NCBI RefSeq assembly: GCF_000186265.1
Contig: NC_014934.1
Coordinates: 4,650,001-4,714,000, forward strand
Source: Cellulophaga algicola DSM 14237
GTDB lineage: Bacteria; Bacteroidota; Bacteroidia; Flavobacteriales; Flavobacteriaceae
Reading direction: 5' to 3'
DNA length: 64,000 bases
Below are positions 1-10,023 of the stretch, one piece after another; positions within the stretch are counted from its first letter, which is position 1; each line of letters opens with the position of its first letter. The position numbers and the translations under genes were made by a program. A model generated the notes under the pieces. It saw only the letters and a list, made by a program, of their open reading frames with translations, had not been told where the DNA came from and ran no database searches.

Positions 1-3000
1 TTATGATCTAAAAATGGTTCTATTTCTTGTTCATATTGAGATAAAAATTCATGTGTTAACGATTTTTTAAAATCATATCTTTTCTGGTCTAACTCTTCCT
101 CTGTCTTTCGACCAATGGCAATTTCAAACTTAATCTCATTTCCAAACTCAAAATCGCCATCAGGTTCTCTCGTTATTATTGGATCAAGACTATTCAATAA
201 CTCCAGTTGTTCGGAGCCTAATTTATTTTTGAACTCCTCAAACACCTGTTCTCTATCAATTGGTGTTTCACCTTTTTTACAACCCGACCACTCTGAAGAA
301 CCACTATTAGTTCCTATTGTATATCTTGAAAAATCACCAAACCCCATAACAGAACGCCATAAGTGTCTGTAATTTTCATTGTCATATTTTCCTTTTAATT
401 CTTCATCAGAAGGAATTTCTTCCGGCCAATTGCTTTGATATGGTGGCCTAACCTTTGATAATTCAAAACTAAGCTCGTTACCAAGGTAATGCGCATATTC
501 AATTGCTCCTCTGGCGTAATCTCTTAATAATATGTGTGGGATTACGCCTGTTGGATCGCTAAAAATAGTTTTAAAAATGTATTCACTTAGCTCTGTTATT
601 TTCTCCTTTTGGTCAGTTCTTAATGTACATCCGTAAGCAACAGCGAATAGCCGTTCAGAAACATATGGATCATTAACTCCTTCGAACATTTTCAAGAGTT
701 TTAATAACACATCAATTCTATTGTGTAGTAAAGAGACCAATGCTTTTGTGGAGCAATCTCTGAGCTTTCTATTTGTGGAAGTATGGAACCATGCCAGCGT
801 GATGCTTGAAAGCAAAACCGATTCATCAGAAATGTGTGATTTGTCCGTCTGATTCCAAGCCCAATCTATAAGTCGTTTTACAGATGAATCATCACTATAT
901 ATATATTTAAGGAATTGTGTCCAATTTGCATCTCGCTCAGCGAGAGAGGATTTTATTAAATGATTGTGTAGAGAGTGAGCATTAAAAAAATGATTTGGAA
1001 TTCCCGTAACTGCAAGAATAGTTTCCCAGAAATAGTCATGTGTGCCTTGATAGGAAAACACATGTTCATTAACATAATTTTTTGACTCTTCGTTAATGGT
1101 TTCGACCTTTCTCCAAAGTAAACTTTCAACAAAAGACTCGACAATTGGATATTTATCTTTAAGATCTGGAATAAGAGTATAAAACTCATATCCTTTTTTC
1201 TCAGGAACCTGTATTGAAAAAGCTTCAATTAGTCCTTTATGTCTATAAATAGCATTTTCATCTTTTACATAACTGTGGAGTTTACCATTTTCAGCGAACT
1301 CTTTCTCTAATTCAGAATATTGTTCAAGTAAATATTGAACAGTTAGGTGGTCTTCAAATCTCTCATATGCTAGGTAAACTCCTTCTTCATAATCATTGTC
1401 TTCTTTCCAAAATCGGTTCTTTGATAGTACACCTTCTGTAATTAGGTCATCTATAAAGCTTTTTTTATCAATAAAACTTGAAATGGATTCATTAACAACT
1501 TGATAAGCTAGTTCATATGATATATATCTAAGTTGGTTGTCAACTTTGTATTTAATTAAAGCATAAATGGATTTTTGTACTAGGTTTAAACTATCTGAGT
1601 ATCCAACTCGTTTTGGTTTTGATAATACAATATTTACGTTTTTGACAAAAAAGTTAATAATTGTGGTGATCCCTTGAAGGCCATCAGGAATGCGGGTTAA
1701 TCCAGCTTTGTTTATTCCTTCACAAAATAGTTTTAAGAATAGTGGATTTTGAAATTCGGGATGTAACAATGGTACATTAGGCAGTTCAATTTTATAATTA
1801 TCAAAAAATAACTTACTTGCTTCATATTCAATATTCCTAAATCCAAAATGATGATGTTCTACAATGTCTATGCTAGACCTTTCTTCGTCAGGAAAAATTA
1901 AACTTTTATAGGAAGTTCTAATAGTTAACACTAGACCGAGCCATTCATATTTTTTTATTTCATTAATGAAACTTTTTACAAACTCATTCCAGAAGTAGTT
2001 CCCTTTGCCTTCATTGATCGCATCAATAAAAAGAACTATTCTCTTTTCTGACTCTTTAGCTCTTTGATTTAATTTTCTTAGAAAATCTTCAGCTTTAGAA
2101 TTGATTTGAAGTCTTTTGAAAATTTGTGTCCAAGGGTCTTCTTCTGTAACGAAATGCTGGCCAAGAAGAAAAACACTTTCATGCTCTTTCTTAATTCTTC
2201 TTGAAACTAAATCTCCAATTAAATGTGATTTCCCTATACCTGCTTCACCATCAAGGAGTAGAAAAGGGTTATTTGCAAGCTTGAATGAAGAACCATGAAT
2301 AAAATTTTGAATGGAAGTAAGCTCATGCTCAAATTCTCTAATGTTTCTTAGCTCAGAACCGTGTTTATGATAATATTGGTAATCATTTTTTTCTTTTTGT
2401 ACTTTGCGTTCTTCTGTTATGTAGTAATCATAGATTTGTTGTACGGAGCTATGAGCTTCATTCAATAAGTCATTAAACTCATTTACTGGAATTGAGGCAG
2501 TTCCTAAGAAATCAATTTTATGAAACAACGTCTGTAATTCATCAAAGGTATTTTCCAAACTCTCAAGACTTTCTTTTACTTCAGGTTGATTCTTTAATAC
2601 CTTTTTCCCTTTTATCAGAAGCTGATCAAAAAGCTTTGTTGATTTCCTTTTGAACTCTTCGGTTCTTCCTAGACCTTCGAATATTTCAGATACCTCAAGT
2701 TTTACATTTAGCTCAGGAGTATACCTTTTTCCTAGATCATCAATTGATGATTCACATTGCTCATGGAACCAATGTTGATCAGGTTGAAATATCGTTTCGG
2801 AGTGCAGAGTTTGAACCATTGAACTTATTGTGTCAATTTTTCTTTCTATGCTATTGAGACTTTCACCTAAATCAAAGATTTTGGTCTTGTAATTTTCTTC
2901 AATAAATAACTCCTTTAGTTTATTGTCATTGTTAATCTTTTCTTTGAAAATCCCATAAAACAAGTCCAATTCACTAGTGCTAGGGATCAAAATATTGGAG

Positions 3001-3305
3001 TTGTTTTTCAATAATTCAATGACAGAACTATAATCGGTTTGTGAATTATTGAATAGAATATACTTGTTTAATTCATCAAACAAAATTTGGGAATGATAAA
3101 AAGGGAACTTGTTGGAAGCGGTTTCTATTTGTTTTTTGGTTTCAAATTCATCAACTGTCTCATATATTATTTTCACCAGTCTATTTTGATACTTTTTTGT
3201 TGGAAAGAAAAATTTCTTAAGCCTTCCGTAACCTTGTTCTTTTATAAATTGATCAACAAATTTGAGAGATACGTATGTTATTATTGTAATTGATACTGGC
3301 TCCAT
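1..3305 (-). CDS. Very large STAND-type NTPase, Avs (AVAST)-like, 3' end outside window
   Basis: One uninterrupted reading frame runs from ATG at 3305 to the window edge (1101 codons, no stop). Residues 353-360 read GEAGIGKS (Walker A). About 70 residues later comes LFIDAINEG (Walker B), then LTIRTS (sensor-like Arg), a proline-rich NPLFLKLFCEG segment and a winged-helix-like stretch with YERFEDHL. The C-terminal 500 residues are helical and repeat-like, with RDYARGAIEYA. This order (N-terminal effector or adaptor, STAND ATPase, long helical sensor) fits the Avs/AVAST anti-phage ATPases, in which the C-terminal part binds a phage protein and the N-terminal domain acts. The first 350 residues are charged and helical; I see no PD-(D/E)XK, protease, TIR or SIR2 motif, so the effector is unknown. 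It has no visible operon partner on the start side. Confident for STAND ATPase; moderate for Avs affiliation. Confidence 0.75.
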   Translation of the reverse strand, partial: MEPVSITIITYVSLKFVDQFIKEQGYGRLKKFFFPTKKYQNRLVKIIYETVDEFETKKQIETASNKFPFYHSQILFDELNKYILFNNSQTDYSSVIELLKNNSNILIPSTSELDLFYGIFKEKINNDNKLKELFIEENYKTKIFDLGESLNSIERKIDTISSMVQTLHSETIFQPDQHWFHEQCESSIDDLGKRYTPELNVKLEVSEIFEGLGRTEEFKRKSTKLFDQLLIKGKKVLKNQPEVKESLESLENTFDELQTLFHKIDFLGTASIPVNEFNDLLNEAHSSVQQIYDYYITEERKVQKEKNDYQYYHKHGSELRNIREFEHELTSIQNFIHGSSFKLANNPFLLLDGEAGIGKSHLIGDLVSRRIKKEHESVFLLGQHFVTEEDPWTQIFKRLQINSKAEDFLRKLNQRAKESEKRIVLFIDAINEGKGNYFWNEFVKSFINEIKKYEWLGLVLTIRTSYKSLIFPDEERSSIDIVEHHHFGFRNIEYEASKLFFDNYKIELPNVPLLHPEFQNPLFLKLFCEGINKAGLTRIPDGLQGITTIINFFVKNVNIVLSKPKRVGYSDSLNLVQKSIYALIKYKVDNQLRYISYELAYQVVNESISSFIDKKSFIDDLITEGVLSKNRFWKEDNDYEEGVYLAYERFEDHLTVQYLLEQYSELEKEFAENGKLHSYVKDENAIYRHKGLIEAFSIQVPEKKGYEFYTLIPDLKDKYPIVESFVESLLWRKVETINEESKNYVNEHVFSYQGTHDYFWETILAVTGIPNHFFNAHSLHNHLIKSSLAERDANWTQFLKYIYSDDSSVKRLIDWAWNQTDKSHISDESVLLSSITLAWFHTSTNRKLRDCSTKALVSLLHNRIDVLLKLLKMFEGVNDPYVSERLFAVAYGCTLRTDQKEKITELSEYIFKTIFSDPTGVIPHILLRDYARGAIEYAHYLGNELSFELSKVRPPYQSNWPEEIPSDEELKGKYDNENYRHLWRSVMGFGDFSRYTIGTNSGSSEWSGCKKGETPIDREQVFEEFKNKLGSEQLELLNSLDPIITREPDGDFEFGNEIKFEIAIGRKTEEELDQKRYDFKKSLTHEFLSQYEQEIEPFLDH

Positions 3306-3930: not shown

Positions 3931-5487
3931 CTACCAATCTATAGGAAAATAATCTTTTAAGAATTTTCCTGCCCAATGTTTTCCGGTATTGATGCCATCA
4001 AATAAAGGATCCATCACCCGTGCAGCGCCATCTACAATATCTAAAGGCGGTTGAAAATCTTGTTCTTCTTGCTTCTTCTTTGCCATAGCTGCAGGGTCTT
4101 CATCCGTTACCCAACCCGTATCTACCGCATTCATAAAAATACCTTGCTTAGCCAAATCGCCTGCAGCCGTATGGGTTAACATATTCAAAGCCGCTTTGGC
4201 CATATTGGTATGCGGATGGCGCGATTCTTTAAAAGCACGGTGGAATTTGCCTTCCATTGCCGTAACATTTATAATATGTTTCTGGCCTGTAGGATTCTTT
4301 TTCATCACTTCCGCCAAACGGTTACACAAAACAAAAGGCGCGACAGCATTTACCAGCTGTACTTCTATCATTTCTGTAGTTTCTATTTCACCCAATTTCA
4401 AACGCCAACTGTTGGTATTTCGTAAATCTACCTGCTGTAAATCGGCATCCAACTCCCCTTCCGGGAATACTTCTTTAGCCACTAAAGCCTTATCAAAACT
4501 GTAGGGTATCTGTGATAATTTTGCCGAAGCACGTAAGCCTATTCCTGGTTCAGGGCCATGCCAAGTAACGGGCATATTCTGATTAGGAGACGCTGTAGAG
4601 GTAAGCTGTGTTAGCTCTTCTAAGCAACTGTTATGATCTTGCAATAATTCTTGTGCGAACTTAGGTAGCGAAGCCATAGGTTGTTCTTCATTCTCCATCA
4701 AATGGTGGTAGAACCCTGCAGGCCTGCGTACCGTTTGTGCGGCATTGTTAATTAGAATGTCTAAATGATCATACTGCTGTTCTATAAAATTACAGAAGAT
4801 TTCTACACTCGGAATATGGCGTAAATCTAAGCCGTGTATTTTTAATCGGTGTCCCCATTCCATAAAATCGGCTTCTTTAGAAAAGCGTAAAGCGGAATCT
4901 ACAGGAAAGCGCGTTGTTGCAATAACGGTTGCTCCGCCACGCAATAGCATTAAAGTGATATGGTAGCCAATTTTTAAGCGAGAGCCGGTAATCACGGCTA
5001 CTTGCCCTTTTACATTGGCGGATTGGAAACGTTTGGCATAATTAAAGTCGCCACACTCCGTACACATGGTATCGTAAAAATGGTGTAGCTTGGTAAAAGA
5101 TGTTTTACAGACATAGCAATTACGAGCAACTTCTAATTCTTGCTGCTCTTTATTTGCTAAATCTGCTGCTTGTAATAATTTTGGTGCCGTAAATATGTGG
5201 GCTTCTCGTGCATTCCGGATTCCCGTTTCTTTCCGTGCCACACGATCCATTTTATCTTGCTTGCGTTTGTTCGCCTTTTTGGCGTCTTTTTTACGACGGG
5301 AAAACTCGTCTCTATTCGGCCTAGAAAACTGCCCGCTTACTTTAAGCAATTCCGTTCTTTGTGCTAGGGGAATATCAAATATTTGATCGGTATGGGCAAC
5401 TAGTTGCCCTAGTATAGCAATGCATTTATCAATTTCTTCGGAGGAAATAGGAGATGAAATAGAAGGGTCTTCAGCGTTTGAATTCAT
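3931..5487 (-). CDS. SDR-family oxidoreductase with N-terminal zinc ribbon
   Basis: 518 aa, about twice the usual length of a short-chain dehydrogenase. The first 120 residues are charged and lysine/arginine rich. Cys124/Cys127 and Cys142/Cys145 form two CxxC knuckles that should bind zinc. The Rossmann fold begins at about 162 with [12 protein letters not shown] (TGxxxxxG nucleotide motif at 167-174) and continues with NNAA at 247-250, the classic SDR signature. Where the YxxxK catalytic motif is expected (about 425-429) the sequence reads TNMAK: the lysine remains but the tyrosine is replaced by threonine. The SDR fold is therefore clear, while ordinary dehydrogenase chemistry is doubtful. 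Substrate unknown. Monocistronic; its upstream side runs directly into the repeat array. Confidence 0.8.
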
Positions 5488-5622
5488 ATAAATTTTACTA
5501 TCCTATGATGCGTTTTTTTACTGTATTACTACTTCTCTATACTAATTATTCATCCGCTGGCGCTACTTCATAATTCACTCGAAGTGACAGCAGTGAACTG
5601 ATTTGTACTTGAGAATCTTTAT

Positions 5623-7119
5623 AACTACTACTCTTTTAATTATTTCTTTGTACCGTTGTCCTAACTTCAACTAGCTGTTCATTTTTTTCATCGATAAAAA
5701 AACGAACCAAACCTGCCTGCCGGCAGGCGGGAAAATCTAGGCTGACGAAACTAAGTCTAAATTTTTCTTTCAATCTCCTGAATTTCAGGGACTCGCTTTT
5801 AACCATCAAGAAAAACAAAACCTAGCGCTAAACTCAAACAGCCTGAAATTGCTACGGATGTTTCAATTCAAATTTTACGACAAATTTTCGATAGGCAGTT
5901 CTTTAATTCAACTAAATACATCAATCAGACTTTCATATTTTGTACTTAATACTCTTCACTTATAACTCAAATGTCAGTTCGAGTGGTTTTCGATAGAAAA
6001 TTGTATCGAGAACTTTTTACTACTCAAATACTTCTCAATACTAATCATTCATCCGCTAGCGCTACTTCATAATCCACTCGAAGTGACAGCGGTATTCTGA
6101 TTAGTAATTGAGAGGTATTATAACTACTACTCTTTTAATTATTTCTTTGTACCGTTGTCCTAACTTCAATTATCTGTTCATTTTTTTCATCGATAAAAAA
6201 ACGAACCAAACCTGCCTGCCGGCAGGCGGGAAAATCTAGGCTGACGAAACTAAGTCTAAATTTTTCTTTCAATCTCCTGAATTTCAGGAACTCGCTTTTA
6301 ATCATCAAGAAAAACAAAACCTAGCGCTAAGCTCAAACAGCCTGAAATTGCTACGGATATTTCAATTCAAATTTTACGACAAATTTTCGATAGGCCGTTC
6401 TTTAATTCAACTAAATACATCAATCAGACTTTCATATTTTGTACTTAATACTCGTTACTTATAACTCAAATGTCAGTTCGAGTGGTTTTCGATAGAAAAT
6501 TGTATCGAGAACTTTTTACTGCACGAATACTTCTCGATACTAATTATTTATCCGCTAGCGCTACTTCATAATTCACTCGAAGTGACAGCGGTGAACTGAT
6601 TTGCAATTGAGATGCTTTATAACTACTACTCTTTTAATTATTTCTTTGTACCGTTGTCCTAACTTCAATTATCTGTTCATTTTTTTCATCGATAAAAAAA
6701 CGAACCAAACCTGCCTGCCGGCAGGCGGGAAAATCTAGGCTGACGAAACTAAGTCTAAATTTTTCTTTCAATCTCCTGAATTTCAGGAACTCGCTTTTAA
6801 CCATCAAGAAAAATAAAACCTAGCGCCAAGCTCAAACAGCCTGAAATTGCTACGGATATTTCAATTCAAATTTTACGACAAATTTTCGATAGGCCGTTCT
6901 TTAATTCAACTAAATACATCAATCAGACTTTCATACATTGTACTTAATACTCTTTACTTATAACTCAAATGTCAGTTCGAGTGGTTTTCGATAGAAAATT
7001 GTATCGAGAACTTTTTACTGCTCGAATACTTCTCGATACTAATCATTCATCCGCTAGCGCTACTTCATAATTCACTCGAAGTGACAGCGGTGTGCTGTTT
7101 AGTAATTGAGATGCTTTAT
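5623..7119. repeat. Three consecutive long (499-bp) repeat units
   Basis: Units 5623-6121, 6122-6620 and 6621-7119 each equal one short unit plus an extra block of about 305 bp inserted after ACTACTACTCTTTT. The extra block contains the GC-rich palindrome CCTGCCGGCAGG (5716-5727, 6215-6226, 6714-6725), strikingly unlike its AT-rich surroundings, and a segment with CGATAAAAAAACGAACC. All three copies sit at exactly the same spacing and differ at few positions. This points to recent block duplication of the 499-bp unit rather than three separate insertions. Confidence 0.93.
5972..6088. repeat. 117-bp core of the element: nested inverted repeats (representative copy)
   Basis: The core is bounded by TGTCAGTTCGAGTG (5972-5985) and CACTCGAAGTGACA (6075-6088), which are inverted copies with one mismatch. 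Inside lies a second pair, GTATCGAGAA and TTCTCGATAC, also inverted (in this copy the right arm reads TTCTCAATAC). The element can thus fold into a two-level hairpin on either strand, in DNA or RNA. The same core recurs in each array unit. Its form resembles REP/MITE-type sequences mobilised in trans; no transposase gene is present in the window. Confidence 0.85.
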
Positions 7120-8665
7120 AACAATCACTCTATTTACTTAATACTATTTACTTATAACTCAAATGTCAGTTCGAGTGGTTTTCGATAGAAAATTGTATCG
7201 AGAACTTCTTACGGCTCAAATACTTCTCGATACTAATCATTCATCCGCTAGCGCTACTTCATAATTCACTCGAAGTGACAGCGGTATTCTGATTTGTAAT
7301 TGAGAATCTTGATAACTACTACTCTCTCCACTTAGTACTCTTTACTTATAACTCAAATGTCAGTTCGAGTGGTTTTCGATAGAAAATTGTATCGAGAACT
7401 TTTTACTACTCGAATACTTCTCGATACTAATTCTTCATCCGCTAGCGCTACTTCATAATTCACTCGAAGTGACAGCGGTGTGCTGATTTGTAATTGAGAA
7501 TCTTTATAACAATCACTCTTTATACTTAGTACTCTTTACTTATAACTCAAATGTCAGTTCGAGTGGTTTTCGATAGAAAATTGTATCGAGAACTTTTTAC
7601 TGCTCGAATACTTCTCGATACTAATCATTCATCCGCTAGCGCTACTTCATAATTCACTCGAAGTGACAGCGGTGTGTTGATTTCTAATTGAGAAGCTTTA
7701 TAACTACTACTCTCTCCACTTAGTACTCTTTACTTATAACTCAAATGTCAGTTCGAGTGGTTTTCGATAGAAAATTGTATCGAGAACTTTTTACTGCACA
7801 AATACTTCTCGATACTAATCATTCATCCGCTAGCGCTACTTCATAATTCACTCGAAGTGACAGCGGTGTGCTGATTTGTAATTGAGATGCATTATAACTA
7901 CTACTCTATTTACTTAGTACTCACTACTTGAAACTCAAATGTAAGTTCGAGTGGTTTTCGATAGAAAATTGTATCGAGAACTTTTTACTGCTCGAATACT
8001 TCTCGATACTAATTCTTCATCCGCTAGCGCTACTTCATAATTCACTCGAAGTGACAGCGGCGAACTGATTTGTAATTGAGAATCTTTATAACAATCACTC
8101 TATTTACTTAGTACTCTTTACTTATAACTCAAATGTCAGTTCGAGTGGTTTTCGATAGAAAATTGTATCGAGAACTTTTTACTACTCGATACTAATTATT
8201 CATCCGCTAGCGCTACTTCATAATTCACTCGAAGTGACAGCGGTATTCTGATTTGTAATTGAGAAGCTTTATAACTACTACTCTTTTCACGTACTACTTT
8301 TCACTCAGAATTCAAATGTCAGTTCGAGTGGTTTTCGATAGAAAATTGTATCGAGAACTTTTTACTGCTCGAATACTTCTCGATACTAATGATTCATCCA
8401 CTAGCGCTACTTCATAATTCACTCGAAGTGACAGCGGTGTTCCGACTTGTAATTGAGAAGCTTAATAACTACTACTCTTTTAATTACTTCTTGGTACTAT
8501 CTATTCAGAACTCAAATGTCAGTTCAAGTGGTTTTCGATAGAAAACTGTATCGAGAACTTTTTACTGCTCCAATACTTCTCGATACTAATCATTCATCCA
8601 CTAGCGCTACTTCATAATTCACTCGAAGTGACAACGGTGTGTTGTTTTTTATTGAGAGGTATTAG
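7120..8665. repeat. Eight short (about 194-bp) repeat units
   Basis: Units begin at 7120, 7314, 7508, 7702, 7896, 8090, 8273 and 8467. Six are exactly 194 bp, one is 183 bp (an 11-bp loss near 8185) and the last is 199 bp. Each contains the 117-bp core and a variable spacer of about 75 bp, in which single-base changes concentrate. The last two copies (from about 8300) are the most diverged, as expected at the edge of an array that expands from within. Confidence 0.93.
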
Positions 8666-8706
8666 AACAATCACACTTTTTACCTACAAATTCGTATTAA
8701 AAAAAA

Positions 8707-10023
8707 TTACTCCAGAACAGTAATTCTGACTTTCTTCTTTTTCAATTTAGTATTGCTTAGCTTTCGCACTAAATCATCAGCAATTGCTAAGGGTACAGCA
8801 ACAAAAGCACAATCTTGTTTTAATTCTATAGTTCCTAATTGATCTTTATTAATTTCGCCTTGCTTAAAGAACAATCCTGCGATATCTCCTTTAGAAATCT
8901 TATCTTTTCTACCGCCAGAAATAAATAAAGTCTCCCAATATTGTGCTTTTCGGGGTGCTTTTACCGAAATATTTGCACGGTTAGGGTTTTTAATAAATTC
9001 TGGAAATTCCTCTTTTTCCCAACGCATTACATAGGCAGTACCTTTTGTATTTACACGTGCTGTTCTCCCATTACGGTGCGTAAATTCTTCCTCAGAAGCT
9101 GGCACATCATAATGAATAATATATTTAAGCTCTGGTACATCTATACCTCTTGCGGCTAGATCTGTAGCAATTAAAAGCTGACTCGTACCATTTCTAAATT
9201 TGATTAAAGCACGGTCACGATCATACTGTTCCATCTCTCCTGAAAATGTAGAATGGCTAATTTTCTTTTCCGTCAAAAATTTATCTAAGTACTCTATATT
9301 TTCTTTTAGGTTACAAAAAACAATTCCTTGTTCATTCCCTAAATGCATTACTAAATCTAATAGCGTTTGAGATTTGTTTCTCAAAGGAGAAATTACCGTT
9401 TTAATCTCTAATTTCAGCGCTTTTTTCTCTTTTAGGTAATTGATAAGAACTGGCTTATCTAAACGTACAAATGGCGGAATCTCTATATTCTGAGTGGCGG
9501 AAGTTAAAATACGCTTATTAATACGCGGTACGTTTGCTATAATACCCTTCATCTCATCAGAAAAACCTTTATCCAAACATTTATCAAACTCATCTAGAAT
9601 CAATGTTTTTATACTCTCTTTAGAAAAACGATCATTCATAAAATGATCTAAAATTCTCCCTGGTGTTCCTATAAGAATAGCGGGATTATGCTTTAATTCC
9701 GACTTATCTTTGGCCATAGTACGACCACCATACACCGCATTTACCTTAAACCCTGTACCCATAATTCTAAGTACTTGCTCTATTTGTATGGCTAACTCGC
9801 GAGAAGGCACCACTATTAAGGCTTGCACTTCGTCAATGGTAGCATCTAATGTTTTTAAAAGCGGTAATAAAAACGCTAATGTTTTACCAGTTCCCGTTGG
9901 TGAAAGTAAAATGGTATTGGTTGTCTTTTCTATAACAGCAATAGCTTCCACTTGCATTGGGTTCAATTGATGAATATTCAGTTTTGCTAAAATATCCTCT
10001 TGATCTTTTATACTATTCGCCAT
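8707..10023 (-). CDS. DEAD-box RNA helicase with DbpA-type C-terminal RNA-binding domain
   Basis: 438 aa. Walker A SPTGTGKT (41-48), PSREL motif Ia (73-77), DEFD (144-147) in place of DEAD, SAT (175-177), ATDLAARGID and HRNGRTAR in the second RecA domain. The last 70 residues (from about 368, DKISKGDIAGLFF...) match the DbpA RNA-binding domain, which directs E. coli DbpA to 23S rRNA hairpin 92. A role in 50S subunit assembly is the likely reading. The third Asp-motif residue is Phe rather than Ala, unusual but conservative for Mg/ATP binding. The neighbouring helicase gene ends 5 bp upstream on the same strand, so the two are probably cotranscribed. Confidence 0.9.
   Translation of the reverse strand: MANSIKDQEDILAKLNIHQLNPMQVEAIAVIEKTTNTILLSPTGTGKTLAFLLPLLKTLDATIDEVQALIVVPSRELAIQIEQVLRIMGTGFKVNAVYGGRTMAKDKSELKHNPAILIGTPGRILDHFMNDRFSKESIKTLILDEFDKCLDKGFSDEMKGIIANVPRINKRILTSATQNIEIPPFVRLDKPVLINYLKEKKALKLEIKTVISPLRNKSQTLLDLVMHLGNEQGIVFCNLKENIEYLDKFLTEKKISHSTFSGEMEQYDRDRALIKFRNGTSQLLIATDLAARGIDVPELKYIIHYDVPASEEEFTHRNGRTARVNTKGTAYVMRWEKEEFPEFIKNPNRANISVKAPRKAQYWETLFISGGRKDKISKGDIAGLFFKQGEINKDQLGTIELKQDCAFVAVPLAIADDLVRKLSNTKLKKKKVRITVLE

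Follow-up and report, generated by a model that had tools for sequence, protein, structure and literature searches.

Why a single intergenic gap should hold twelve copies of one palindromic element, laid head to tail at regular intervals, is the question raised by positions 4650001–4714000 of the single-contig chromosome of Cellulophaga algicola DSM 14237 (4,888,353 bp; genome G000). This stretch of 64,000 nucleotides is referred to here as the window, and the array within it occupies the gap between a dehydrogenase gene and a DbpA-like helicase gene. With a probability of roughly 0.7, we read the element as a dimer of hairpins resembling repetitive extragenic palindromes (REPs), which was duplicated in place together with its spacer, whose copy number changes from species to species and whose core is constrained.

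Copies were counted by their closing foot, CACTCGAAGTGACA, with up to two mismatches allowed. The array spans window positions 5530–8633 and comprises one truncated copy and eleven complete elements, ten of 117 bp and one of 106 bp. Intervals between the twelve closing feet are, in order, 499 bp (three times), 194 bp (five times), 183, 194 and 200 bp, and Tandem Repeats Finder returned a 499-bp period at 5530–7122 and a 194-bp period at 6941–8683. The count confirms the head-to-tail order of the original prediction, with three long and eight short intervals, six of them exactly 194 bp. All copies read on the forward strand. The truncated copy (5530–5589) consists of a second half only, with its closing foot at 5576–5589, and is followed by the spacer of the first long unit (5590–5971). 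Complete elements 1 (5972–6088) and 2 (6471–6587) are likewise followed by long spacers, and the spacers are short from element 3 (6970–7086) onward, through elements 4 (7164–7280), 5 (7358–7474), 6 (7552–7668), 7 (7746–7862), 8 (7940–8056), 9 (8134–8239, the copy shorter by 11 bp), 10 (8317–8433) and 11 (8517–8633). No open reading frame of at least 100 amino acids overlaps the array. The array does not fit the pattern of clustered regularly interspaced short palindromic repeats (CRISPR), its repeats being 117 bp long and its spacers themselves repeated. Both flanking genes lie on the reverse strand, the short-chain dehydrogenase gene (3931–5487) with its start and the DbpA-like DEAD-box helicase gene (8707–10023) with its end towards the array. 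Among named organisms, the closest relative of a flanking gene comes from Cellulophaga baltica DSM 24729, whose dehydrogenase is 97% identical.

The long units contain about 305 extra bases each, and most of this segment is also found beside a second array of the chromosome, at 4602 kb (94% identity over 263 bases). The insert (5621–5931, 6120–6430 and 6619–6929) carries a repeat of about 70 bp with CCTGCCTGCCGGCAGGCGGG, which recurs at 1659–1665 kb and 299 kb (see L103 and L108), with shorter matches elsewhere.

Tandem arrays are a habit of this element, and relatives carry them at orthologous sites with differing copy numbers. At the window locus, complete and truncated copies number twelve in G000, seven in genome G008, five in G010 and five in C. 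baltica DSM 24729, a draft in which copies may be collapsed; the helicase–dehydrogenase gap, measured between tblastn matches, is 3223, 2051, 1314 and 984 bp, respectively. At the 4602-kb locus, the same four genomes hold 5, 6, 4 and 3 complete copies. The gene pair was also listed at 23 other loci, where the gap is 65–85 bp in 20 cases (Arenibacter, Maribacter and two further metagenome-assembled genomes) and wider at L021 (427 bp), L083 (788 bp) and L090 (1380 bp); a BLAST search with the core found no match at any of the 23. Tandem repeats are often misassembled, but the genome is a single contig and the units of the array differ among themselves. Moreover, because arrays stand at the orthologous site in two more single-contig genomes and in the C. 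baltica draft, an assembly artefact is unlikely as the source of the array, and extremely so.

A single copy and an array were found at one and the same site elsewhere. The single element at 795 kb in G000 (L017) has flanks orthologous to those of an array in G008 (L169) with eight opening and nine closing feet and a 154-bp period, and the L169 spacer is similar, by eye, to the sequence on the right of the L017 copy. A tree of 43 units separates those at the window locus from those at 4602 kb (100/99), which indicates that copies multiply within a locus. The G000 window units clustered beyond chance (three changes against a shuffled mean of 10.0); the G008 and C. baltica units of the same locus showed no such clustering. 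Taken with the separation of the loci, this mixed pattern suggests that copies multiply in place and are shuffled. The expansion by duplication that had been proposed for the array is thus supported by the single-versus-array orthology and by the tree, and the copy-number variation, which the original prediction had sought among isolates, stands as a difference between species (12, 7, 5 and 5 at the window locus; one against nine at the other site). Judged from L169 and the tree, the best-supported explanation is local tandem duplication together with the flank, by slippage or unequal recombination.

Divergence was calculated as raw differences, with fourfold sites taken from the two flanking genes. 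Between G000 and its three relatives at the window locus, the elements differ by 6.8–7.5%, the spacers by 18–21% and the flanking fourfold sites by 33–34%, and in the same comparisons the elements of the 4602-kb locus differ by 9.6–10.1%. In the 25 complete units of the window locus, minor bases occupy 12 of 1398 cells of paired columns (0.86%) and 102 of 1516 cells of unpaired columns (6.7%), and at 4602 kb (18 units) 1.7% and 10.1%; the paired columns include the feet conserved throughout the family, and the figures combine conservation of sequence with that of structure. Within genomes, the element is less variable than its own spacer in five of eight array sets (two of the eight hold only two units; the 1680-kb array and the 1887-kb array of G008 stand outside this comparison). 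For the short units of the window the values are 2.7% for elements and 16.7% for spacers, a spread that does not fit the exact register being a sign of recent clean expansion. Gene conversion alone would not slow the rate. The core, most markedly at its paired positions, varies less than spacers and fourfold sites do, and something probably still acts on it.

The element consists of two REP-like half-hairpins that face each other, with TGTC at the outer end of both and with variable inner hairpins. Read in one direction, it runs from TGTCAGTTCGAGTG through an inner hairpin, GTATCGAGAAC, a short link, CTTCTCGATAC and an inner part to CACTCGAAGTGACA, the second half being the inverted partner of the first. 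Each half can be read as a hairpin with a foot (S)TTC/GAA(S), a GA/GA step, a G-C pair and the variable inner hairpin. In element 6, whose halves were assigned by eye and from the survey of halves and dimers, half 1 (7552–7593) has a G..C foot and the inner hairpin TTTTC-GATA-GAAAA, the central stem is formed by GTATCGAGAA and TTCTCGATAC, and half 2, on the reverse strand, has a C..G foot. This anatomy, together with the position in the gap, bears out the earlier description of a palindromic intergenic element.

The foot bases were surveyed in 232 unique halves, drawn from fetched loci and from 61 matches to a pattern that already required G or C at both foot positions; G..C occurs in 109, C..G in 118 and another combination in five, giving coupled feet in 227. 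The inner stem score was 6.19, against 2.72 (sd 0.08) in 200 shuffles. Inner hairpins vary strongly among loci, yet the pairing is mostly kept; in one family of genome G041, a G-C pair of the stem is exchanged for A-T, and isolated C-A and T-T mispairs also occur there. In the fetched loci, 60 of 87 unique neighbouring halves (gap up to 60) stand head to head; 57 of these 60 dimers combine a G..C half with a C..G half, and the gap is 15–19 in 58.

On either strand, the fold of the whole element comprises an outer stem interrupted by one fixed mismatch, a 10-bp stem at the centre and side hairpins. For the copy at 7552–7668, the DNA fold scored z −3.8 on the forward strand (none of 200 shuffles as good) and −3.3 on the reverse strand (one of 200), and the RNA folds scored z −4.4 and −3.9 on the two strands (none of 200 each). 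The large hairpin attributed to the copies is therefore upheld for this one, both as DNA and as RNA. Of 46 nonredundant halves, 19 have a central loop of the GNA or GNNA type, reported to be unusually stable in DNA (PMC4686876); 500 shuffles gave 5.5 on average and never more than 15. Furthermore, G-T mispairs in the inner stems outnumber A-C mispairs by 78 to 14 over all halves and, more weakly, by 20 to 8 in nonredundant halves (p 0.036). Both excesses lean towards recognition as a folded single strand, short of proof.

A search of G000 with the core (131-bp query), which had been proposed as a check, returned 52 matches, among them other arrays and single copies, and the foot motif with up to two mismatches gave 106 matches against nine for its control. 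The other arrays lie at 4602 kb (five copies), 1680–1686 kb (29 closing and 18 opening feet) and 4551 kb (four), with an array of four half elements of 116-bp period at 3185 kb; single, half or worn copies lie at 795, 1531, 3689 and 4474 kb, and weaker matches at 1635 and 3782 kb. The core was matched in ten of the 18 Cellulophaga genomes searched, G000 counted. A strict half pattern was found in 116 of 299 Flavobacteriaceae genomes (backward control 0), and tandem runs are also present in other genera. The short form TGTCAGTTCGAGCGCAGTCGAGAAC occurs in the family. Among 119 genomes sampled from the class, 13 contain a related short palindrome, TGTCATTCCGAGCGAAGCGAGGAATCT, or variants of it (at most one mismatch); none was found in G000. 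The premise that such elements are normally scattered singly finds no support here, as arrays are common in the genus, and tandem clusters of REP doublets forming hairpins (REPINs) and reiterated REP dimers are described in PMC3116915 and PMC3733652.

Two further observations concern the copies in G000 and its relatives. Spacers of the large array (L015, 3674–8945; L172) contain a second short repeat of 20–22 bp, TTCAACAACTGTCATTGAA and variants, often doubled. At 4474 kb, the element forms an in-frame part of a CusA-like efflux gene with a 1288-aa open frame (L107, 2504–2598). A clean empty-site insertion could not be claimed there: most homologues lack the stretch, but they are too divergent at that point for a sharp boundary (the G005 row was left out of account in this comparison).

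In the reading we favour, a dimer of two TGTC-tagged REP-like hairpins would have entered the short gap between the DbpA-like helicase and dehydrogenase genes in an ancestor common to the C. baltica group. The element and the spacer next to it would have been duplicated head to tail in place, through replication slippage at the hairpins, unequal recombination between direct repeats, or both, and copy number would since have risen and fallen in each species. Recognition of the core may involve a folded single strand, cruciform DNA or RNA, and selection would account for the low divergence of the core. A wider form of the proposal appears unlikely: that asymmetric REP dimers throughout the family (one G..C and one C..G half, a gap of 15–19 nt, a cloverleaf-like fold and inner hairpins that are exchanged but mostly paired) are recognised as folded single-stranded DNA by a factor other than a Y1 transposase, and that the arrays are kept by selection, with copy number as a tunable trait.

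Several observations weigh against the favoured reading. The contrast shrinks in the comparison of C. baltica with G010, the closest pair, where elements differ by 7.1% and fourfold sites by 17.5%. Element divergence is nearly flat, at 6.2–7.5% over all six pairs regardless of species divergence, which implies that part of it is the unit-to-unit variety within arrays and not time. Three of the eight array sets are reversed, the element being more variable than the spacer in the two long window units (6.0 and 3.7%), at 4602 kb (9.5 and 5.6%) and at locus A of G008 (6.8 and 5.0%). In addition, when the halves are folded alone, half 1 gains little over its shuffles (DNA z −1.6) and half 2 gains nothing (z 0.03), under parameters that, as far as checked, have no bonus for the GA/GA step. 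Finally, the coupling of the foot bases may reflect two old types rather than many events, and the 61 halves taken in by pattern had met the demand for G or C at the foot beforehand.

REP-type repeats are usually explained by REP-associated tyrosine transposases (RAYTs). Applied here, the element would be a REPIN mobilised by a Y1 transposase, of RAYT or IS200 type, and the arrays a by-product of the enzyme; this seems to us improbable. The dimers are indeed REPIN-like, the halves show the excess of GNA/GNNA loops, and the genes of G000 include a single one of RAYT type (82.7 bits against a cut-off of 80) and four that encode a Y1 domain, each 146 aa long and probably of the IS200 type. Across the 299 family genomes, a RAYT over the cut-off and a half element occur together in 31 (odds ratio 2.4, p 0.004), and any RAYT hit and a half element in 57 (odds ratio 1.6, p 0.054), both uncorrected for kinship. 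However, seven of the 14 genomes with at least ten half-pattern matches have no RAYT hit and none of these seven has a Y1 hit, in a transposase search limited to RAYT and Y1, so that a Y1 transposase is not needed for the present abundance; a mobilising enzyme may have been lost since, or may belong to another family. The flanks of RAYT genes point the same way. The foot motif lies within about 1.5 kb of two of 59 RAYT-hit loci (four motifs), where the control rate (six in 1.26 Mb) predicts about one, and in the genus alone it lies near one of 30; the RAYT gene of G000 is flanked, by eye, by a different palindrome. RAYT was not retained as a partner, its flanks being mostly negative though the co-occurrence at genome level is weakly positive. 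In the relatives, RAYT-like genes or clusters, several with stops, lie roughly 10–145 kb from the two arrays (L143, L145, L148, L155, L158 and L161; contig 18 of G001, 2.43 Mb in G010 and 4.68–4.76 Mb in G008), and no foot motif was found within about 1.5 kb of them. The original prediction raised rolling-type replication; acting on an excised circle that was then reinserted, it would yield the head-to-tail order and the fixed register. It is barely credible as the origin of the array: the short-unit spacers differ by 16.7%, duplication of element and flank is seen at L169, IMG/VR holds no exact half-pattern match, and phage and plasmid collections gave no blastn match to window 7200–7800. Nor was a Rep protein or relaxase found among the neighbours classified (dehydrogenase, helicase, Avs2-like protein and IS1595 transposase), which are part of the neighbourhood.

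The arrays might instead serve the cell, as serial terminators, structured RNA or serial binding sites for nucleoid or replication proteins, and be selected as arrays. The constrained cores and the persistence of arrays at orthologous sites in four species would agree with this, as would 18 terminator-like sites against 1.4 (sd 1.3) expected; ten of the eleven complete elements (5985–8559) form a terminator-like 11-bp stem followed by a T-run on the forward strand. Both flanking genes, however, lie on the reverse strand, opposite to these ten hairpins, and the T-run is not retained, by eye, in the 1680-kb array. A further point in favour is that the 26 arrays of at least three feet lie between codirectional (16), convergent (9) and divergent (1) reading frames (p 0.005 against one quarter; simple reading-frame calls, with orthologues counted although they are not independent). 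Against a cellular role, copy number varies freely (12, 7, 5 and 5; one and nine), the 20 other listed loci with a 65–85-bp gap keep the gene pair with no core match, and Rfam gave no match on the window or on the array. Three promoter-like sites were counted, below the shuffled mean of 10.0, and a search for tRNA or tmRNA found none. On balance, selection of the arrays for such a task is doubtful.

Other genomes of the family offer observations on how related copies are dispersed. In genome G225 (L287–L296), ten nearly identical copies of a 182–184-bp element (nine measured) are spread over 3 Mb; the element has inverted ends ACCCGTTGTGCATTTT, with the REP dimer as its middle, and several copies have apparent target-site repeats by eye. 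These copies were rejected as proof of the dimer's own mobility, since the dimer is the middle of an element with its own terminal inverted repeats and may be carried there by another mobile element. Half elements of a related kind in G118 start sharply at TGTCA behind differing flanks (by eye), a pattern to be expected if they move or recombine as whole modules. The same genome holds mosaic clusters (L297–L302) in which TGTCAC half elements, ATTCC-type REPs and other small repeats stand in varying orders, again by eye.

The neighbourhood of the window array includes a 1499-aa protein (window 1–3305, reverse strand; L019, 8806–13305) that adjoins the dehydrogenase gene, extends past the left edge of the window and matches the Avs2 anti-phage models of PADLOC (best E 0). 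Two transposase genes, nearly identical by eye, lie at L019 1656–2549 and L108 9869–10762; the one tested matches the ISXO2/IS1595 type.

Tandem palindromic repeats are familiar from other bacteria. Bacterial interspersed mosaic elements of type 2 (BIME-2) in Escherichia coli are alternating REPs in tandem, their copy number differing between strains; compared by description only, they share the tandem alternation with the present arrays and differ in their GTAG-type REPs. Neisseria has arrays of Neisseria intergenic mosaic elements (NIMEs), beside dRS3. The dRS3 elements, listed as CGTC-1 elements in PMC3733652, are by description alike in being CGTC-type palindromes found mostly in large clusters, and are set apart, by description only, by a different sequence and unit. 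In the parts of that survey drawn on here, REPs tagged with CGTC or TGTC are mostly head-to-head dimers without a dedicated transposase, are present in Bacteroidetes, and form clusters called rare except in Neisseria and Wolbachia (PMC3733652). The present element shares with them the terminal TGTC tag, the predominance of head-to-head dimers and a location between and sometimes within genes, and may also lack a dedicated transposase. It differs in its stem: the published stems are of 8–9 bp with A-T in the first two positions, loops of 4–5 bases and tails that are mostly CCA (PMC3733652, same parts), whereas here a foot of about 5 bp, with a first pair A-T and a second G-C or C-G, is followed by the GA/GA step and a long variable hairpin.

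The REPINs of Pseudomonas fluorescens SBW25 provide a second comparison. Their published account, as far as it was consulted, describes 16 tandem clusters that include the flanks, the largest of four REPINs and one REP (PMC3116915). The likeness lies in two inverted REPs that fold together into one hairpin, in tandem near-identical clusters with flanks and in the extragenic location. Unlike these, the present arrays reach twelve copies and, at 1680 kb, 29 closing feet; three SBW25 clusters adjoin RAYT genes (PMC3116915), a link not found for the present arrays, in whose genome the RAYT gene has other palindromes beside it (by eye); and the present halves carry variable inner hairpins. The element works like a REPIN and resembles the TGTC REPs, and departs from the stem-loop description of the latter and from the RAYT link of the former. 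Among the open-licence papers searched, no description of the flavobacterial element or of its arrays was found. As tandem REPIN clusters and head-to-head REP dimers are already published, the present array looks like a tandem-amplified relative of known palindromic repeats.

For the biology of the family, the element represents a REP relative that is abundant also where a genome gave no Y1 transposase hit. Between species, the divergence of its core is about one fifth of that at fourfold sites in the comparison with three relatives, a contrast that is less marked for the closest pair. Whether such an element is selfish, useful or both becomes a question that can be tested at defined loci, given the differences in copy number between close species.

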